Shown: positions 6,499 to 20,883 of the stretch, one piece after another
Layout: the number at the start of each line of letters is the position of its first letter
Position numbering within the stretch: the stretch's first letter is position 1
Source: Bacillus sp. JCM 19058
GTDB taxonomy: Bacteria; Bacillota; Bacilli; Bacillales_H; Bacillaceae_D
DNA: 21,115 nt
NCBI GenBank assembly: GCA_001310555.1
Contig: BAXO01000089.1
Location: forward strand, 1-21,115
Reading direction: 5' to 3'
Notes under the pieces: model-generated
Databases searched by the model: none
Told to the model about the DNA's origin: nothing
What the model saw: only the letters and a program-made list of their open reading frames with translations
Made by a program: the position numbers and the translations under genes

Positions 6499-6988
6499 TA
6501 TTTTTTTACAAAATGTCGTAAATATATATCAATTGTTCAGTTCTTAGAAACCGAGCAGAGAATGCAAAAAAAGGTTTAATGTTCTGTACCGTCTCGAGCG
6601 GGAGTGAAGGCGGGTTAAATTCTTCTTGTTTCGGTGTGCGGTTGTCTTTTTCCTCGAAGGACCTGCTTTCCTTAAACTTCCTAACCTACTTGTCAAAAGA
6701 AGAAGGCGTCAGTTCAAAGGCTTCTGGCCGAATTGGTTTATCGGTTTACCGATTTAGTACAACGTCTAGGAGTTTTATTTGATACCTTGCCTCCGTATGA
6801 GTACTTTGATTATGCCTTTCTGCTTTGGAGAAATTTTACCAACACCCATAAAAATAGGCATTGTAATCAGTAACAATACCCACCTATCATTCATAATTTG
6901 TAGGGAGTATTGGAAGTAAAGGTGGATGTATCACCAAACAGTCGGATTTCTGATGTTTTTTTGATATATCTTGTTAAATTTATTTTGC
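6499..6988. other. intergenic left flank of the TOMM cluster, no gene recognised
   Basis: Short frames exist on both strands but none has a start with a ribosome-binding site or a recognisable domain. The promoter of the precursor gene should lie near its right end. A weak extended -10 candidate (TGTTAAATT, about 6972-6980) is the best I see, without a clear -35. Confidence 0.4.
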
Positions 6989-7001
6989 GGAGGTGACAAG
7001 A

Positions 7002-7268
7002 ATGAATAATTTCCAAAACGAACTCCAAATGTTGAATGTTGGCGATTACCATACGAGTGAGGCAGTTCCTTGGGATCAAAATCAGTACTATCATGATTCA
7101 TCTCGACAAATCGGCGGTTGTGGTCGTTGCTTTAACTGTTTCCGTTGTTTTAATTGCTTCAACTGCTTCCGTTGTTTTAATTGCTTTCGCTGCTTTAATT
7201 GTTTTCGTTGTGGCGGTCGATGTGGCGAACGATGCGGTGGTCGATGCGGCGGACGGTGCGGCGGTTAA
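7002..7268 (+). CDS. hcaA: TOMM precursor peptide, heterocycloanthracin-like, Cys-repeat core
   Basis: This 88-residue peptide is a thiazole-peptide precursor. The ATG at 7002 is preceded by GGAGGTGA at 8 bp; the in-frame GTG at 6993 lies inside that site and is rejected. Residues 1-39 form a Cys-free leader (MNNFQNELQMLNVGDYHTSE, then a segment ending SSRQIGG). The core starts at Cys40 and holds 15 Cys: 11 at exact three-residue spacing (40 to 70) and four more at four-residue spacing (74, 78, 82, 86). Positions between are nearly all Phe, Asn, Arg and Gly. There is no Ser or Thr, so only thiazoles can form. The Cys-x-x repeat and the three maturation genes downstream fit the Bacillus heterocycloanthracin family. 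The mature product is expected to be an antimicrobial-type peptide, but activity is not shown. The symbol is by analogy. Confidence 0.9.
   Translation: MNNFQNELQMLNVGDYHTSEAVPWDQNQYYHDSSRQIGGCGRCFNCFRCFNCFNCFRCFNCFRCFNCFRCGGRCGERCGGRCGGRCGG
7128..7265 (+). repeat. in-gene tandem repeats: nine 9-bp units then 12-bp units
   Basis: The core coding DNA is a direct repeat. Units of 9 bp (TGY-TTY-AAY or TGY-TTY-CGY) run from 7128 to 7208 and encode CFN/CFR. From 7209 the unit becomes 12 bp (TGY-GGC-GGN/GAA-CGN), encoding CGGR/CGER to 7256, with a last CGG. Longer 18-bp pairs (CFNCFR) occur four times with one extra CFN. Synonymous codons vary between copies, so the array is not a recent pure duplication. 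Such arrays invite slippage and copy-number variation. Confidence 0.9.
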
Positions 7269-7302
7269 TAGTTCTAGATTTCAAGCAAAAACTATGATTA
7301 TG

Positions 7303-7335
7303 AAAAGTCCCTCAAGATTTATTGCAGGGACTTTT
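7303..7335 (+). terminator. hairpin between precursor and maturation genes
   Basis: A perfect 10-bp stem, AAAAGTCCCT (7303-7312) with AGGGACTTTT (7326-7335), encloses a 13-nt loop, 34 nt after the precursor stop. The right arm ends in TTTT followed by CTCG. It is likely a leaky terminator or mRNA 3'-end stabiliser that yields much more precursor transcript than enzyme transcript. Confidence 0.75.
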
Positions 7336-7433
7336 CTCGATAAGATTAGACATAAGAAACAAGTTCTAGTACATAGATTATAGTGATAGTCATGATGTAG
7401 CTTTGAAAACAGCTATAGGTAAGGAGGAGTGGG

Positions 7434-9379
7434 ATGCCACATTTGACCCCTACTATGCGCCTGAAGGTAAAAAGAGACACGTTCTTTCTCCCTGATCCAA
7501 ACAGCGGTGTGTATTTTCGTAATAACATAAGTTCTTTCCGTATGGAGGGAAAATCAATCGATCAGTGGGTTGAAAAGCTGTTACCGATGTTCACCGGGGA
7601 GTACACGTTAGGGGATTTGACAAACGGATTACCGGAGCCATACCGGGAGCGTGTCTATGAAATTGCTGAAACACTTTACCGAAATGAGTTTGTTCGGGAT
7701 GTGAGCCAAGATCTTCCGCATCAATTGGCAGAGAAGGTTCTTAACATGTATGCTTCTCAAATTGAATTTCTGGACAGTTTTGGCGATTCAGGTGCATACC
7801 GATTTCAAACCTATCGTCAGGCAAAAGTGTTGGCCGTTGGATCTGGTCCTTTTTTTTGTTTCATTAGTCTCTTCATTGATTGAGTCCGGATTGCCCAAGT
7901 TTCATATGCATATCACTGATTCCGTATCGACTAATAGACGACGTTGATGGAACTTGTGGCACATGCTCGTAAAAAAGACTCCGAGGTTGCCGTAGAGGAG
8001 ATCAGCTTACAGGAGAAGGGGATAAGTGCATGGAGAGAGATTGTTCAGCCATTTGATTGGATTTTGCATGTGTCTCAAGAGGGTGACGTAGAGGAACTTC
8101 GCGTTCTTCATACGGTTTGTAGGGAAGAGCAGAAGGCGTTCCTCCCCGCTATATGCCACCAACGGGTCGGTCTGGCAGGTCCGCTCGTGCATCCAGACTC
8201 TAAGGGATGTTGGGAGTCTTCGTGGAGACGCGTGCATCAAACTGTATTTTCCAAAGAGCGACAGTTTCCCGCTAACTCAACTATACCCGGGGCAATGTTA
8301 GCCAATATAATTGTGTTTGAAATGTTTAAAGAGATAACAAAAACGACCGAATCGGAACAGAATAACCAATTCTACTTACTTGATCTGGACACGATGGAAG
8401 GAAACTGGCATTCGTTTTCGCCCCACCCATTGGTGGAGGGACGTGCATCTACTGAATGGATAAGAGATTTAGAATTCCGTATCGCACGAAATCAAGGGGT
8501 AGATGAATCGAATCGATTACTTCTCTACTTTAGTCAGCTGGCATCGCAGGAATCAGGAATTTTCCATAATTGGGAGGAGGGGGACTTAAAGCAACTGCCT
8601 TTAGCTCAGTGCCGGGTTCAGCCAGTCGACTTGCTGTCTGAGGGGCCTGCGGAGCTGTTACCAGAAATCGTATGCAGCGGTCTAACGCATGAGGAAGCAA
8701 GGAGGGAAGCCGGTCTGACTGGGATTGAAGCGTATATAACCCCAATGGTCGATCGGCTCATTACGACCCTTCCGCCAGACGAAGTAAAGGATAGCGTACA
8801 GGAATTCGTAGGTGTTGGAGCGGGTGAAACCGTTGTGGAAGGTATATACCGGGGGCTGCAAAGGTGTTTGGATGAGGAGCTGAGCAAGCAACGGGTGAAT
8901 AAAAGAAATATTGTTACTCGGCTGCAGTTGGGTACGGTAGAAGATGAGCGTTGCCAATTTTATCTGGAAGCCCTGACGACGATGCAGGGACCACCGACGA
9001 TCGGGATTGGAGAGGAAGTGACCGGATTCCCTTCGGTATGGGTCGGCACGGAGGAAGGCTGGTATAGCAGTGTTGATTTGAATACGACGAGGGCGTTGCG
9101 CAAAGCATTACAACAGGCGCTTATTCACGCACAAAATCAAGAGACTTCCCTTATGCCGCAAACGTTGGAGGCTAACGTTTTACTGGAAGAAAAGGCGCCT
9201 TTAAGTTTTGACATTCCCGCTTGTGATGAGTTGACTCAACCGAATTATTGCAATCTGCTATACAAGTCCTGGAACGGAAACGCAAGCGGCTCATGGTCTT
9301 TGATCTAGCATTGGAACCATTTTTAAAAGAGGGACTCGCAGGAGTATATGGTGTACTTTTACGGGAGGAGGGATCCTAG
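7434..9379 (+). CDS. hcaF: ocin-ThiF-like TOMM maturation protein (leader-binding F protein), three frameshifts
   Basis: Rejoined, this is a protein of about 645 residues matching the putative thiazole-containing bacteriocin maturation family (ocin-ThiF-like). In heterocycloanthracin systems the F protein binds the precursor leader and delivers it to the YcaO cyclodehydratase. The N-terminus (MPHLTPTMRLKVKRDTFFLP, then SGVYFRNNISSFRMEG and EYTLGDLTNGLP) has the winged-helix look of a peptide-recognition domain. A ThiF/E1-like region follows (QAKVLAVGSGP, then LVSSLIESGLPKFHMHITDS; HQRVGLAGPLVHPDSKGCW). The frame slips at the T run near 7852-7859, returns near 7935-7944, and slips again near 9260, where the next frame gives MVFDLALEPFLKEGLAGVYG to a TAG at 9377-9379. 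That stop overlaps the GTG start of the D gene. The start is supported by AAGGAGGAG. Confidence 0.88.
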
Positions 9380-11320
9380 TGAGTGCTGTTGTGGTGGTCG
9401 GAGAAGGGTTATTGGCGGATCGGGTGTGCGGAGAACTGTCCGCTCAATATGAAGTAGTCCGCTGTACTAATCTTGAGGCGGGAGTACCGGAAACGACCGA
9501 TTTAGTTATGGTATTGGACGATACTTTGAATCCTTCCATTCATAAAAAGGCGGAAGAGGCGCTGCGACCAACTGGTATTCCTTGGCTGAGAGGCTTCGTT
9601 TCATTTGGAGAGGGCGTAATTGGGCCGTTAGTACGCCCAAATACGCTAGGGTGCTCTCAGTGTGCAGATAAGCGACGTCTCATGGCCGGACGAGACCGTA
9701 AAGAGATGTGGGAGTTAGAGAGGAGACTTGAAGAGAACGGGGAAATGTTGAGCGATGCCTGGGCATCGCGCACGGGAATAATGCAGATGACCCATCTTCT
9801 CGAGGCAGAGGCAAGGAGAGTATTAGAAGGCGATCAGGCTCACTCCGAAGGTCGCTTATGTTTAATCAATCTGAAATCGCTGAAGAGTTCATGGCATTCG
9901 TTTCTTCCCGAACCGTTTTGTCCAATCTGTAGTCAATTACCCGACGATTCACCGGACGCCTCCCGAATTGCACTGCAGCCTAGTCCGAAGATCAGCACTG
10001 ACAGTTACCGCTGTCGTTCGATGGAGGAGCTGAGAAATGTTCTAAACAAAGACTATTTGGATCATCGGACCGGCATTTTAAATGGGAAAATGTATGACCT
10101 TGTCCTGCCATTTGCTGATGTCAATGTCAATCTGCCGTTGTTCACGGGGGACGAAGGCGTGGCTGGTCGGACTCATTCTTACACGATAAGTGAGTCGACG
10201 GCCATCTTGGAGGGTTTGGAACGGTATTGTGGCTTGTCTCCACGAGGTAAACGGACAGTAGTCCATGACAGTTTCCGTAACCTGGAGGGCAAAGCACTCA
10301 ATCCTATCAAGGTAGGCGTACACGCGCAGGAACAGTATGCGCTGCCCGATTTTCCGTTTAAAGCGTTTAATCCTGATCACTCCATCAATTGGGTTTGGGG
10401 CTATTCATTTTTGCAAGAGCGTCCTATTCTAGTTCCAGAGCTGCTTGCGTATTATAGCTTAGGCTGCGGAGAGGGGTTTGTCTATGAAACTTCCAATGGG
10501 TGTGCGTTAGGCGGAAGTCTAGAGGAGGCCATTTTCTACGGTATTATGGAGGTCGTGGAGCGTGATTCGTTCCTGATGACTTGGTATGCGGAGCTGACAC
10601 TTCCGCGCCTTGACCCTTATTCTACTAACGACCAAGAATTAGAGCTAATGATCGACCGTGTACGGACAGTGGGCGGATATGATCTGCATTTTTTTTAACT
10701 CGACGATGGAAAACGGAATTCCAAGCGTTTTGGCGTTGGCGAAAAATAGAAAAAAAAAGAGGGTTAAATATTATAAGTGCTGCTGGCGCTCATCTTGACC
10801 CAATACGAGCGGTGAAAAGCGCGGTTCACGAGTTGGCTGGTATGATGCTGATACTAGACGAAAATTTTGAGGCAAATCAGCAGGAGTATAGGCAAATGTT
10901 GCAAGATTCTTCCCTAGTACGGAAGATGGATGATCATGGTATGCTGTATGGGTTGCCGGAAGCGCAAGAACGCCTACAGTTTTTGCTAGATGATAACCGT
11001 CCATTGCGAACGTTTGACGAGGAATTCAAATGGAAGTCAGGGCATGCAGACCTTACCGATGATCTGCGGGATGTTCTTCAGGAATTTAGCCGATTGAACC
11101 TAGATGTGATCGTGGTGGATCAGACGATACCGGAAATAAAACGAAACGGACTGTTTTGCGTGAAAGTGTTGATTCCGGGGATGCTGCCGATGACATTCGG
11201 GCAACACCTTACCCGCGTAACAGGGCTGGAAAGGTGCTCAAGGTGCCAATGGAACTCGGATATGAAAAACAACCACTAACACTTGAACAACTCAATCCAC
11301 ATCCGCATCCGTTCCCGTAA
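9379..11320 (+). CDS. hcaD: TOMM C-D fusion: leader-docking E1-like domain plus YcaO cyclodehydratase (three frameshifts)
   Basis: The joined product of about 646 residues is the ATP-dependent azoline-forming enzyme. Residues 1-200 are the E1-like docking scaffold, with two CxxC zinc motifs (Cys92/Cys95 in TLGCSQCADKR, Cys181/Cys184 in PFCPICSQ). The YcaO domain follows, with the nucleotide/Mg motif SESTAILEGLERY (Glu272, Glu278, Glu281, Arg282) and a second motif LEEAIFYGIMEVVERDSF (Glu391, Glu394, Arg395). After breaks in T8 (10689-10696) and A9 (10750-10758), each one base too long, it continues SAAGAHLDPIRAVKSAVHEL. A third slip near 11230 restores a C-terminus ending NPHPHPFP, the Pro-rich tail that is important for catalysis in TOMM YcaO enzymes. 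The GTG start overlaps the F gene stop. It acts on precursor Cys residues with the F protein. Confidence 0.92.
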
Positions 11321-11342
11321 CCGATGGTTAGGAGGTAGGAGG

Positions 11343-12907
11343 ATGAGTTTAGAGACATTTCTGCATAACCTACACTTTAACATTGATCAGGCAAGCCCCT
11401 CAGATTGGGAAGTAGCTTGGGACGATGCACCGCTTACGTATAAGCTCTACCGTGACTTACCTGTGGTTCCGCTTTCTTCGGAAGTACCGCTGACGCTTGA
11501 AGGGCGGGAAGTACCAGTAAAGCTTGACCAATGTGAAATCGGTCATTTTCTCTGGTATGTATTCGGACTTACTCAAATTAGCGAGTCTGTCAATGCCTTG
11601 GGTTCCGTAGAGCAAGCAGACCTCATGCAGTCGTATCGGCGGTTTGTTCCTTCTGGAGGGGCGTTGTATCCAAACGAATTGTACGTGTATCTGAAGATAG
11701 AGAATGTTCCTCCGGGTGTTTACCATTATGATGTAGCCCATCACTGCTTAGTGCTGTTACGGGAAGGGAATTTCGATTCATATATATCACGGGCTCATGG
11801 TAATCACTGTAACATATCCGATTGTTTTGGTGCCGTTTTTGTGACGACAATGTTCTGGAAAAATTTCTTTAAATACAATAATTTTGCTATCGCCTGCAAG
11901 GGTTGGATGCTGGTGTGTTGATTGGACAGTTACTTGAAGTAGCGAAGCGTTTTGGCTTCGCATCAAGGGTTTGCTTTCAGTTTCTTGATCGGGCCTTTAA
12001 CCACCTGCTTGGGCTTTCTGAGCAGGAGGAGAGTGTGTATGCAGTTATCCCGCTATCGGTCGAACCAGCGATTGGCATGACTAACGAAAGTGGCACAGAC
12101 GTTGTTGCCACTAACTTGTGCCGAGAGTTGCCAGCGATTCGGCCTACTCATTACGTCCAGTCACAAAGGGTGATAGAGTATCCGACGTTAACCGAGGTGA
12201 ATGAAGCGTCCATGCTGGAATCAACTAGCTCGTTTCGGCATGTCAAGGAGGAAAATACAGACTTTGAGGGTCAAACGGTGGCTCTGCCTTACGTAAAACA
12301 GTTGCCATATGATTTGGCATCAGCCTGCCGAAACCGATTTTCGCCGGACGTAGATTTCGCTCTAGGAAAGGTAAGTCAACAGCAGCTGGCTACACTGCTG
12401 AAGGGGGCGATGGATTCCTTCTCCTATCGAAATGATTTGGATGGAGTACAAAAGGAGCAGGAGCCCCGTGTCTCACTTTACTGTTGTTTGTATAATATTG
12501 AGGGCATTCCAGACGGCGCTTATCAGTATGACAGTCCTTCTCACGCGTTACGTCTAGTACAACGAGGAGATTATCGATTACAGTTACAATACGGAATGTC
12601 CGGAAGTAATGTAAATATGTTCCAAGTACCACTCTGCCTACACGTAGCGGGGAACAGAGAGTACTTTAAAACGGCACTGGGATACAGAGGATATCGGATT
12701 CAACAAATGGAAGCAGGTATGCTTGTACAACGATTACTATTACTAGCATCGGCAATCGGAATGGGGGGACATCCACTTCTCGGGTTCGATGCGAATGTGT
12801 GTGATGAGATTTACAAAATTGATCCACAACGAAAAACGACCCTTATCCAAATCCCAACTGGTCCGTATCGACATCGGCCTTGGTTAAGAGGAAGTCTGCA
12901 TAGTTAA
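11343..12907 (+). CDS. SagB-type azoline dehydrogenase with two nitroreductase-like halves (one frameshift)
   Basis: This FMN-dependent dehydrogenase (the TOMM B protein) oxidises thiazolines to thiazoles. The ATG follows GGAGGTAGGAGG, 22 bp after the D stop. The joined protein has about 521 residues. The first half has the SagB signature RRFVPSGGALYPNELYVYL, then PPGVYHYDVAHHCLVLLREG. Near 11890-11900 one base is missing; the next frame continues YRLQGLDAGVLIGQLLEVAK. The second half repeats the fold: FALGKVSQQQLATLLKGAMD, IPDGAYQYDSPSHALRLVQR and YRIQQMEAGMLVQRLLLLAS, ending with LLGFDANVCDEIYKI. The duplicated layout matches the long SagB proteins of Bacillus TOMM clusters. One half may be structural only; I cannot tell which half binds FMN. 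Confidence 0.9.
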
Positions 12908-13224
12908 GTCAAACTGGAGTGTTTCAAGTGAAAATTTTCGCAGCTGAACAATTAACAATGACCTGAAAAAAATAAACAGCCGTTTCAAGTTTCGTCTAAC
13001 AAAGGGTAAACATGTGTCTTTACCTAAGCGCTTCACTCCGGCTAAGTTACCGAACGTTAATTAAGCGACTATCTTTAAGAGGATTTGAATTAGCACACCG
13101 AGCGACACCTTAAAAGGGCTCACAGACGCTACCGCCTGATCTGTCATACGGGAGTCGAATGGCTCAACGATGGGCTTACTCTCGTGGAAGAAGCATGGAT
13201 TCCGTGAGAGTAAGTACTAGCTGA
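12908..13224. other. degenerate intergenic segment between TOMM cluster and phnW remnant
   Basis: No intact frame, promoter or terminator is evident after the SagB stop. All frames are interrupted by stops. Part of it (13036-13107) resembles a transposase fragment, described separately. The segment ends abruptly where phnW homology begins. Confidence 0.5.
13036..13107 (+). pseudogene. possible IS6-family transposase fossil
   Basis: A 24-codon stretch translates as LSYRTLIKRLSLRGFELAHR with flanks. It resembles the N-terminal part of IS6/IS240-type transposases, where an LSYR...ERG..hHtTi pattern precedes the catalytic core. Upstream and downstream are stops and I see no terminal inverted repeats. 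If correct, it is a small relic. The match is short and may be chance. Confidence 0.3.
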
Positions 13225-13830
13225 ATCATTGATGCGATGAGTAGCTTTGGCGGGATCGATATTGATGTTCCTTCGCTCGGCATTGACTACTTAATAAGCA
13301 GCGCCAATAAATGTATTCAAGGGGTACCAGGGTTTGGTTTTGTCATTGCTAAGCTTGAGAAGCTGTTAGGATGTGAAGGGAATTCCCGTAGCCTTGCATT
13401 AGATTTATACGATCAATGGAAGGAAATGGACAAGGATGGGAAATGGCGCTATACGTCCCCGACACATGTAGTAGCTGCTTTTTCTAAAGCGGTTGATGAA
13501 TTAATAGAAGAAGGCGGTATCCATGCAAGACATTCACGCTATGAAAATAATAATAGACGGTTAAGAGAGAGGCTGAAAAAAGTAGGGATACATGCCTATA
13601 TTGCAGAGGAAAAGCAATCACCGATTATTACAACCTTTCTATTTCCAAACGAGCAATTTTGCTTTGAAGACTTTTATTCATTTGTGAAAGACAGAGGGTA
13701 TGTGATCTACCCGGGAAAGCTTACGGATACAGATACATTCCGAATTGGAAATATTGGTGAAATTTACGAAGAGGATATTCAAGAGTTATGTCATATTATT
13801 GAAGAATATATGGGAGTGGTGAAGCAATGA
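13225..13830 (+). pseudogene. phnW: 2-aminoethylphosphonate-pyruvate transaminase, 5'-truncated
   Basis: About 200 C-terminal residues of PhnW, the PLP enzyme that converts 2-aminoethylphosphonate and pyruvate to phosphonoacetaldehyde and alanine. Homology starts abruptly at codon ATC 13225, just after a TGA, as [19 protein letters not shown]. The PLP-ring Asp and the Schiff-base Lys ([15 protein letters not shown]) are present, but roughly 165 N-terminal residues of a usual length of about 365 are missing and are not found elsewhere in the window. The remaining frame is intact to the stop at 13830, which overlaps the phnX start as ATGA. An internal start at ATG 13237 would make a protein without its cofactor-phosphate and dimer regions, so it is probably inactive. 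Confidence 0.88.
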
Positions 13831-18737: not shown

Positions 18738-19590
18738 TTAACTAATATGATTGTACATCGTGTACAATAAAAGCAAATATTGATCAAACGAAATTGAATT
18801 TTTGCTATGATGGACGATCATATGTTGGGATTTATAGTAAGAGTAGCTTCGTTGCCCCATTGCAATTTTCGCCAAATGGTCAAAGGAAGGTCTCGTCGTT
18901 CTGTTCATCAAATAGGCTGATTGATTGCTCCCCGGCTTTCTCGCTTGATTCAAAGTTTGAATCATTTGTTCAGCTGTTCCAATTGCTATTCCATGACCAA
19001 AATACGTACCATCTTCGAGAACAACGGCATTTTCTCCTCTCCATTGAGGCGTTTGAGGATCGAAATCTGGATTATTAAAGTAGACGACGTCTCCGGGTAG
19101 GAAGTAGTGTGTATCATATGACGTTAGTCCAAGGTCAGGATCAGCATGCCAGCTATATAAATAGATGTTTTGAAAAAAATTGATTGAATAACTGCTCGCC
19201 TATAAGGCTTAGGACCGCATGATAATAAATAATAATCATTGCTGTTGCACATTCAAATGCATATAGCGAGCTGTTCGAATAAATATCTTGAATCGCGTCC
19301 GATGGCTTTATGCCTTGCCGCAGCTGGAATCCACCCGTATTCGTCAAAAGCCAGTATTGAGGATTACAGCGGGAATTTTCAAATACTGCGAACTGTACAT
19401 TGCTTTGATTCATGGCCCTTGCACTTAATACGATATTTTTTCGTAAGCTAAGCTCAAATGACAATTCGTCTACGGATGAGTACGAATAAACCGTCGGATT
19501 GTTATTCATCCGTTGAATAATCGCACGTTCAATACCCCCAGTTGGCCACATGCTACTTTGTTGAAAAGGTTCCCCCGCTATTTGGATCAT
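18738..19590 (-). CDS. tgl: spore coat protein-glutamine gamma-glutamyltransferase (one frameshift)
   Basis: This transglutaminase cross-links spore coat proteins through Gln-Lys isopeptide bonds. The joined product has about 283 residues. The N-terminal part reads MIQIAGEPFQQSSMWPTGGI, then the catalytic Cys in YAFECATAM. The A7 run near 19170 carries one base too many; the next frame continues YLYSWHADPDLGLTS, LPGDVVYFNNPDFDPQTPQW, RGENAVVLEDGTYFGHGI, and RKPGSNQSAYL to the end at TAA 18738. All are hallmarks of Bacillus Tgl. An AAGGAGG site precedes the ATG. It marks the host as an endospore former. Expression should be restricted to the mother cell late in sporulation. Confidence 0.93.
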
Positions 19591-19877: not shown

Positions 19878-20883
19878 ATGATGAGAATTTTAATCATCGG
19901 CGGAACGAGTTTTATAGGCCCTTATGTTGTCCGCGCCTTGCAGGAGAAGGGACACGATATCACGGTTTTTCACCGCGGGAAAACGAGCTCAAATTTACTC
20001 GGAGATGTTCGGCATATTTATGGAGAGCGCGATGAGCTTGAACAACAAATGAAAGAAATTACAAAGGTGAATCCAACTGTTGTGCTTGATATGATACCTT
20101 ATTTTGAAAAGCATGCCCAAATGGTGATGAACGTATTTCAAGGTTTAGTTGAACGAGTTGTTGTCATTAGTAGTGTAGACGTTTATCGAGCATACGAAAT
20201 TCTCAATCGAATGAAAGCAGGTAGCATTCAAAGGGTTCCTTTAAAGGAGACAGATGAATTAAGAAGCGTACTGTTTCCGTATCGAGGGAAACTACAGAAG
20301 GACTTTGCGCATGATTACGAAAAAAATTTTGGTAGAGCAAACCGTCCTTAACAATACAGAGCTTTCAGCAACCATTTTGAGGCTTCCAATGGTTTATGGA
20401 CCTAACGATCCACAAAGGAGACTACTTGAATACGTTCAGCGCATGAAAGACGAACGACCGTATATTTTATTAGATGAACGAATGGCTGACTGGAGAACTT
20501 CGATGGGCTATGTTGAAAATGTCGCTTCAGCGATTGCTATGGCCGTAGATAATAAAGAAGCTGCTTCTCATATAATAAATATTGGTGAAAGTATAGCCTT
20601 ATCTTTGCTTGAACAAGTGGAAGAAATCGGGGAAGTCATGAATTGGAAGGGACAAGTAATTTCGGTTCCTAAAGGGACTATGCAGGATGAATTACCATTT
20701 GACACAAGACAGGATCTCGTGATCGACACGACCAAACTACGCGAGCAATTTAATTATGAAGAACCTATTTCACGAAAGGAAGGGCTAACAAGAACCGTTC
20801 GCTGGGAGCTTGCTAATTTACCGAAAAACTCACCATTCGATTACGATAAAGAAGACGCCGTTTTCCGTAGGTTAAACCTGTAG
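19878..20883 (+). CDS. NAD-dependent epimerase/dehydratase family protein (one frameshift)
   Basis: An extended SDR of about 334 residues. The N-terminal NAD-binding motif is MRILIIGGTSFIGPYVVRAL, followed by DITVFHRGKTSS; the mid-strand VVVISSVDVY and later DYEKILVEQT (YxxxK-like) fit the family, as do RLPMVYGPNDPQRR and YVENVASAIAMAV. The frame breaks in the A7 run near 20320-20326, one base too long. Start codons at 19878 and 19881 follow GAGGAGGGG. The C-terminus has TRTVRWELANLP typical of nucleoside-sugar-type epimerases of Bacillus. The substrate is not evident and no sugar cluster is nearby. A small GAGGA/TCCTC hairpin follows the stop; 20884-21115 holds nothing else I can assign. Confidence 0.88.

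Follow-up and report, generated by a model that had tools for sequence, protein, structure and literature searches.

The 21,115-nucleotide (nt) stretch analyzed here (positions 1 to 21,115, forward strand, of contig BAXO01000089.1, assembly GCA_001310555.1, Bacillus sp. JCM 19058; the whole stretch is called the window) carries, between positions 7002 and 12907 and all on the forward strand, a locus of four genes: a Cys-rich precursor, an ocin-ThiF-like protein (F), a fused C-D cyclodehydratase (YcaO), and a double-SagB dehydrogenase (B), in that order (Table 1). The locus is an ordinary member of the known heterocycloanthracin/sonorensin family. The new point lies ahead of the precursor, where we find an element, shared with many relatives, that has the look of a sporulation-type promoter and makes the role of the family testable.

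The original prediction, read from the sequence alone, described a Cys-repeat precursor with 15 Cys, followed in the same order and strand by F, C-D (YcaO), and B, with a TAGTG junction between F and D, and all of this is borne out. The precursor (7002-7268, 88 residues) has an intact reading frame and 15 Cys in its core, and it scores 68.8 bits against TIGR03601, the heterocycloanthracin/sonorensin precursor model (cut-off, 35); 36 of its 39 homologues are named by precomputed Pfam/NCBI annotation as the same family or as PF27784. The overlap is present at 9377-9381. The family matches are far beyond chance (1e-19 to 1e-141), and in a comparison that had been named beforehand, with models of thiazole/oxazole-modified microcin (TOMM) maturation enzymes, each enzyme piece matched its own model. 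The F pieces reach 237 and 471 bits against TIGR03693, each under the whole-protein cut-off of 561.9 because the F frame is broken. The fused C-D protein exceeds the TIGR03882 cut-off (155.3 bits vs. 36.9), its pieces reach 205 and 125 bits against TIGR03604 (cut-off, 219), and its closest relatives are Sporosarcina proteins with 79-81% identity. Both B pieces are above the TIGR03605 cut-off of 78.4 (113 and 87 bits). The tandem SagB-like halves of B (11343-12907) are 23-26% identical to each other.

Table 1. Features of the locus and of the region upstream of it (window coordinates)
Feature	Position	Strand	Description
GerE-type box, AAATAGGCATTG	6852-6863	+	11 of 12 letters of RWWTRGGYNNYY
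Putative sigma-K promoter core	6872-6900	+	AAC (-35 side, 6872-6874), 17 nt, CATAATTTG (-10, 6892-6900); agrees with the strict rule
Leader, about 100 nt	6901-7001	+	Ribosome site GGAGG at 6989, from sequence; partly conserved in 15 aligned loci
Precursor peptide	7002-7268	+	88 residues; leader of about 37 residues, then CxxC-type core with 15 Cys; TIGR03601, 68.8 bits (cut-off, 35)
Hairpin in precursor-F gap, possible attenuating terminator	7303-7335	+	-15.0 kcal/mol
F (ocin-ThiF-like), broken	7434-9379	+	Pieces 7434-7883 and 7944-9308; the end, in a different frame, runs to about 9376; TIGR03693, 2.7e-70 and 5.2e-141
Fused C-D cyclodehydratase (YcaO), broken	9379-11302	+	Pieces 9379-10698, about 10691-10747, and 10743-11243, tail in another frame; TIGR03882, TIGR03604, PF02624
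B dehydrogenase, two SagB-like halves, broken	11343-12907	+	Pieces 11343-11921 and 11903-12907; TIGR03605 on both; PF00881 on the second

It had also been proposed that linkage of precursor and enzymes sets this locus apart. The linked enzyme-substrate set itself stands, as a heterocycloanthracin-type precursor with F, C-D, and B, but the linkage is not distinctive. A contig scan with a piece of D yielded 50 loci from Bacillales and related families (one, L050, was dropped, its contig beginning inside D), and a Cys-rich precursor lies just upstream of F in all 49 loci that reach F. When loci were reached via the precursor family instead, F was adjacent in 36/37 and 39/40. Linkage is thus the rule across the family, as already published: the precursor lies far from the enzymes in the B. 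cereus group and B. anthracis, a peculiarity of those organisms, and is adjacent to the maturation genes in B. licheniformis (Haft 2009). A four-gene locus is also described in passages of a 2024 study of Parageobacillus (PMC11270796).

The prediction further noted that the cluster holds no transporter, protease, or immunity gene. None is seen among the open reading frames (ORFs) listed between 7002 and 12907, and across the 50 regions and their genera no exporter, protease, or immunity family is conserved in place beside the cassette. Their absence is therefore a family trait, in agreement with the portions of Cox 2015 that deal with the family. Counting ORFs of at least 90 residues, six neighbor families recur in at least five of the 50 regions; four reflect Rossellomorea synteny, and the other two, ABC ATPases (the commonest, 9/50 regions, on both strands and at scattered distances) and LysR-like regulators (by look; 5/50), are scattered.

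The upstream element was derived from the 220 nt preceding the precursors of 49 loci and of the window, 50 in all. These share a block that reads AAATAGGC, then GTAACAATACCC, then TTCATATTTTG, and that in the window and many relatives takes the form WTRGGY-N13-AC-N17-CATAnnnT; in the window, its downstream part lies ∼100 nt before the precursor start codon. We wrote a strict rule (WTRGGY-N8-30-AC-N16-18-CATANNNT), together with a looser version, after viewing these first 50 sequences. The strict rule matches 26/50 precursors vs. 3/1175 upstream regions taken from the other ORFs of these loci, and 0.18% of 5000 shuffled sequences; the loose rule matches 37/50 vs. 9/1175. On two sets fetched later, the strict rule matched 22/26 and 21/34, vs. 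3/1172 control upstream regions. The geometry is also conserved: of 84 loose matches, 66 have AC and CATA spaced by 17 nt, and 74 have the GerE-type box 13 nt ahead of AC. The complete 12-letter string RWWTRGGYNNYY, which we take to be the GerE consensus, occurs upstream of 29/50 precursors vs. 31/1175 controls. In the open-access literature, the string was found in print only for the cyanobacterial PedR.

It should be noted how these sets were composed. The second began with 37 loci and was reduced to 26 by removal of eight duplicates of the first and three loci without a precursor by our start rule; the third, drawn from places listed earlier without a locus, comprised 40 loci less 3 and 3, leaving 34. 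A fourth set, from the wider class, held 36 loci, of which two were duplicates and 11 had no start by the rule, leaving 14 precursors adjacent to F and nine without F. The loci are related, so the counts are not independent trials, and the distal precursors of the B. cereus group lie outside all sets.

To assign the element, eight sigma types were compared using their consensus strings, with up to one mismatch allowed for sigma K. Strong enrichment is seen for the sigma-K consensus alone, which occurs upstream of 37/50, 23/26, and 26/34 precursors where 11.4, 5.9, and 7.7 are expected from control upstream regions. Sites for sigma A, F, G, H, B, and W occur about as often as expected (for sigma A, 5/50 vs. 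3.5, 3/26 vs. 1.8, and 1/34 vs. 2.4). The core A[CG]-N16-18-CATAnnnT also stands before eight of the nine precursors whose fetched stretch (∼3 kb) contains no F, vs. 89/1172 controls. These nine are nonduplicate precursors from six genomes of the class sample that have several precursors; four are in one Aneurinibacillus chromosome, and several are recent paralogues and hence not independent. Up to six distant precursor genes per genome were seen in Aneurinibacillus and others (L219-L228, L232-L234), and most of these are preceded by the same core. In B. thuringiensis, the mapped sigK-dependent promoters of the exosporium genes bclA and bclB are of the same build according to passages of PMC4750369. 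No tie between the heterocycloanthracin family and sigma K was found in the open-access literature searched.

On this evidence we favor, as the probable explanation, a linear azole cassette of heterocycloanthracin/sonorensin type whose precursor gene would be switched on in the late-sporulation mother cell by a promoter of sigma-K type, perhaps with help from GerE. By analogy with the family as described in sections of Cox 2015, F would hold the leader, C-D would close the core cysteines to thiazolines, and B would oxidize these to thiazoles. The thiazole peptide might then be freed by lysis of the mother cell or laid on the spore. GerE also activates cwlC and cwlH, genes for mother-cell lysis (passages of PMC517825), so no exporter would be needed for release of the product or for its staying on the spore, and such a peptide would likewise need no leader protease or immunity gene of its own. 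Precursors and enzymes have been known for this family since 2009, but an export route, an immunity function, and a natural role have not. Late mother-cell expression, if true, would explain the missing exporter, protease, and immunity genes, and would mean that peptide hunts in growing cultures miss the right time and place. We put forward more tentatively, and with some doubt, that heterocycloanthracins in general are poly-thiazole products of the sporulating mother cell (under sigma K, perhaps GerE) rather than vegetative secreted bacteriocins, often with several scattered precursors served by one F/C-D/B cassette, and that they are either incorporated into the spore surface or released by lysis so as to guard the spore.

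The distribution of sporulation genes is consistent with such a role. Of 398 class genomes compared, all 65 with an over-cut-off precursor have spoIVA, vs. 203 of the 333 others (P = 4e-13, uncorrected for kinship; compared by eye). In the 66th to 71st genomes the precursor match is under the cut-off, and one of these (G711) is without spoIVA. The window also contains a gene for Tgl, of the spore-coat transglutaminase family (19153-19590, reverse strand), which is broken at an A7 run.

Several observations weigh against a sporulation promoter. Within the order of Sporosarcina, the spoIVA association is not significant (6/6 vs. 191/255, P = 0.18, again uncorrected for kinship). In the wider class sample, only 2/14 precursors adjacent to F match the strict rule and only 4/14 have the sigma-K core, and when most of the places dropped by the start rule were re-checked at the profile hit, 9/16 had the core and 5/16 matched the strict rule. 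In one group of related precursors, which includes G849 and G856, no element can be recognized. The -10 of the window ends in TG where the sigma-K consensus has TA, and a perfect -10 (CATAnnnTA) is found for 9/50, 0/26, and 3/34 precursors. Sigma E is mildly enriched in one set (3, 6, and 3 sites vs. 2.4, 1.3, and 1.7 expected). The 12-letter GerE-type box is absent upstream of CotZ (0/16) and Coat_X (0/19) ORFs of related genomes, and the sigma-K core precedes 2/16 and 5/19 of them; the control is a weak one, as some of these ORFs are spurious or inside operons. These were the only positive controls for the GerE part of the element, which failed them; its assignment to GerE is putative. Across 12 genomes, the composite pattern gave 26 matches vs. 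87 for the reversed control, one of the 26 being the precursor promoter itself. In addition, sonorensin is reported, in passages of PMC4544038, as an active bacteriocin obtained from culture.

This last report leads to one of the two stronger alternatives, that the locus encodes an ordinary secreted bacteriocin of growing or stationary cells, with genes for export, cleavage, and immunity elsewhere. The family is annotated as bacteriocin, and according to the same source sonorensin kills both Gram-positive and Gram-negative cells. Heterocycloanthracin genes of B. cereus are up in biofilm, but sporulation genes are up there too, so the observation, taken from passages of PMC6962202, does not discriminate. 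Sigma-A sites upstream of the precursor remain at control level, and genes for transport, proteolysis, or immunity have no fixed position next to the cassette, the ABC ATPases being scattered; we regard this alternative as unlikely. The other possibility, to which we give much the same low credence, is that the element serves another regulator or sigma factor (e.g., an unknown activator or sigma E) or functions as part of the RNA. The failed positive controls of the GerE-type box, the mild sigma-E enrichment, and the conservation of the leader downstream from the promoter would all fit. However, the sigma-E -35 ATA is lost in Brevibacillus loci where AAC is kept, and an Rfam search of 6800-7450 gave no match.

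The leader (6901-7001) and its relatives are conserved as DNA but do not keep one reading frame. In a few loci this region seemed to hold a conserved small ORF, which was rejected, as the longest frames disagree over 110 loci. A structured RNA leader in this position is possible. The hairpin between precursor and F is another possible control point, and would favor precursor transcripts over enzyme transcripts; a scan for hairpins with T-runs found them in 35/50 precursor-F gaps, and the same scan missed the hairpin of the window.

The question remains of the broken enzyme genes. As sequenced, none of F, C-D, and B is a single ORF. Alignment to unbroken relatives places the frame changes of F in a shifted stretch at ∼7850-7940 and again at 9239, those of D at 10691, 10745, and 11240, and that of B at ∼11900. 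Three fall on homopolymers (7850, T8; 10691, T8; 10745, A9), and four (F ∼7940 and 9239, D 11240, B ∼11900) are off long homopolymers. The unrelated neighbors phnX (14244) and tgl (19173) also change frame, both on A7 runs, and a short-chain dehydrogenase (289-657, 756-1037) and an epimerase (19878-20351, 20305-20883) are split as well. Because several breaks sit on runs of 7-9 bases and unrelated neighbors break alike, sequencing error is likelier than decay; the breaks are probably mostly errors of sequence, in a cassette that the living cell probably has whole. That the set is instead a decaying group of pseudogenes in this organism is improbable. In favor of decay, all three enzyme genes change frame, four breaks are away from long homopolymers, and the adjacent phnW is without its first 168 residues in the window. 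Against it speak the breaks on T8, T8, and A9 runs and those of phnX and tgl on A7 runs, the intact precursor frame and promoter, and identities to 11 relatives that for D are about those among the relatives themselves (78.2 and 82.5% mean) and for F and B only slightly under (63.9 vs. 65.7-70.2% and 70.4 vs. 71.7-76.4%). The original prediction had seen the breaks, in that it spoke of rejoined proteins, but did not weigh them in calling the cluster complete, a word that does not hold where only pieces match the models; nor is the locus, with its broken enzyme frames, sufficient for Cys conversion as the sequence stands. Overall, what had been observed is partly confirmed, and its interpretation partly supported.

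GC content of the cluster is 46-50% over 8001-13000, vs. 34-43% in the flanks. On the right, 317 bases separate the end of B from a phnW remnant (13225-13830) that retains residues ∼170 to the end, the first 168 residues not being found in the window, so that the edge of the cassette is at a truncated gene. Relatives of different genera have no flanking genes in common, which gives the impression that the four genes travel together. Sixteen plasmid records gave a match; within the cluster the matches are weak (67-71%) and cover only parts of it: 7417-8218, in F, to a Paenibacillus larvae plasmid (71%), and 10172-11319, in D, to a 2.7-Mb Paenibacillus cellulosilyticus replicon (67%).

Among known systems, thiopeptide clusters with an F-dependent cyclodehydratase share F and, putatively, a truncated C-D, as described in portions of Cox 2015, where the family C domain is said to be without ∼100 N-terminal residues; they differ in their pyridine-ring enzymes, none of which is seen in the window, and in that the core here is a repetitive Cys core. 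The bclA and bclB promoters share AC or AGC, a short spacer, and a CATA-T -10 with our element, and differ in the spacer, given as N16 in the relevant passage of PMC4750369 and mostly 17 nt from AC here. With the heterocycloanthracin/sonorensin family (TIGR03601; Haft 2009 and passages of Cox 2015) the locus shares the precursor model, F (TIGR03693), fused C-D, and B, as well as Cys-Xaa-Xaa repeats and, as far as those passages describe the family, the lack of a dedicated transporter. Unlike in the B. cereus and B. anthracis members, the precursor of the window adjoins its enzymes, and the enzyme frames are broken as sequenced. In having the precursor beside the maturation genes, the window resembles the loci of B. 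licheniformis (Haft 2009) and Parageobacillus (in the part of PMC11270796 describing them), with core residues FNC/FRC where Cys-Trp-Ser is reported for B. licheniformis.

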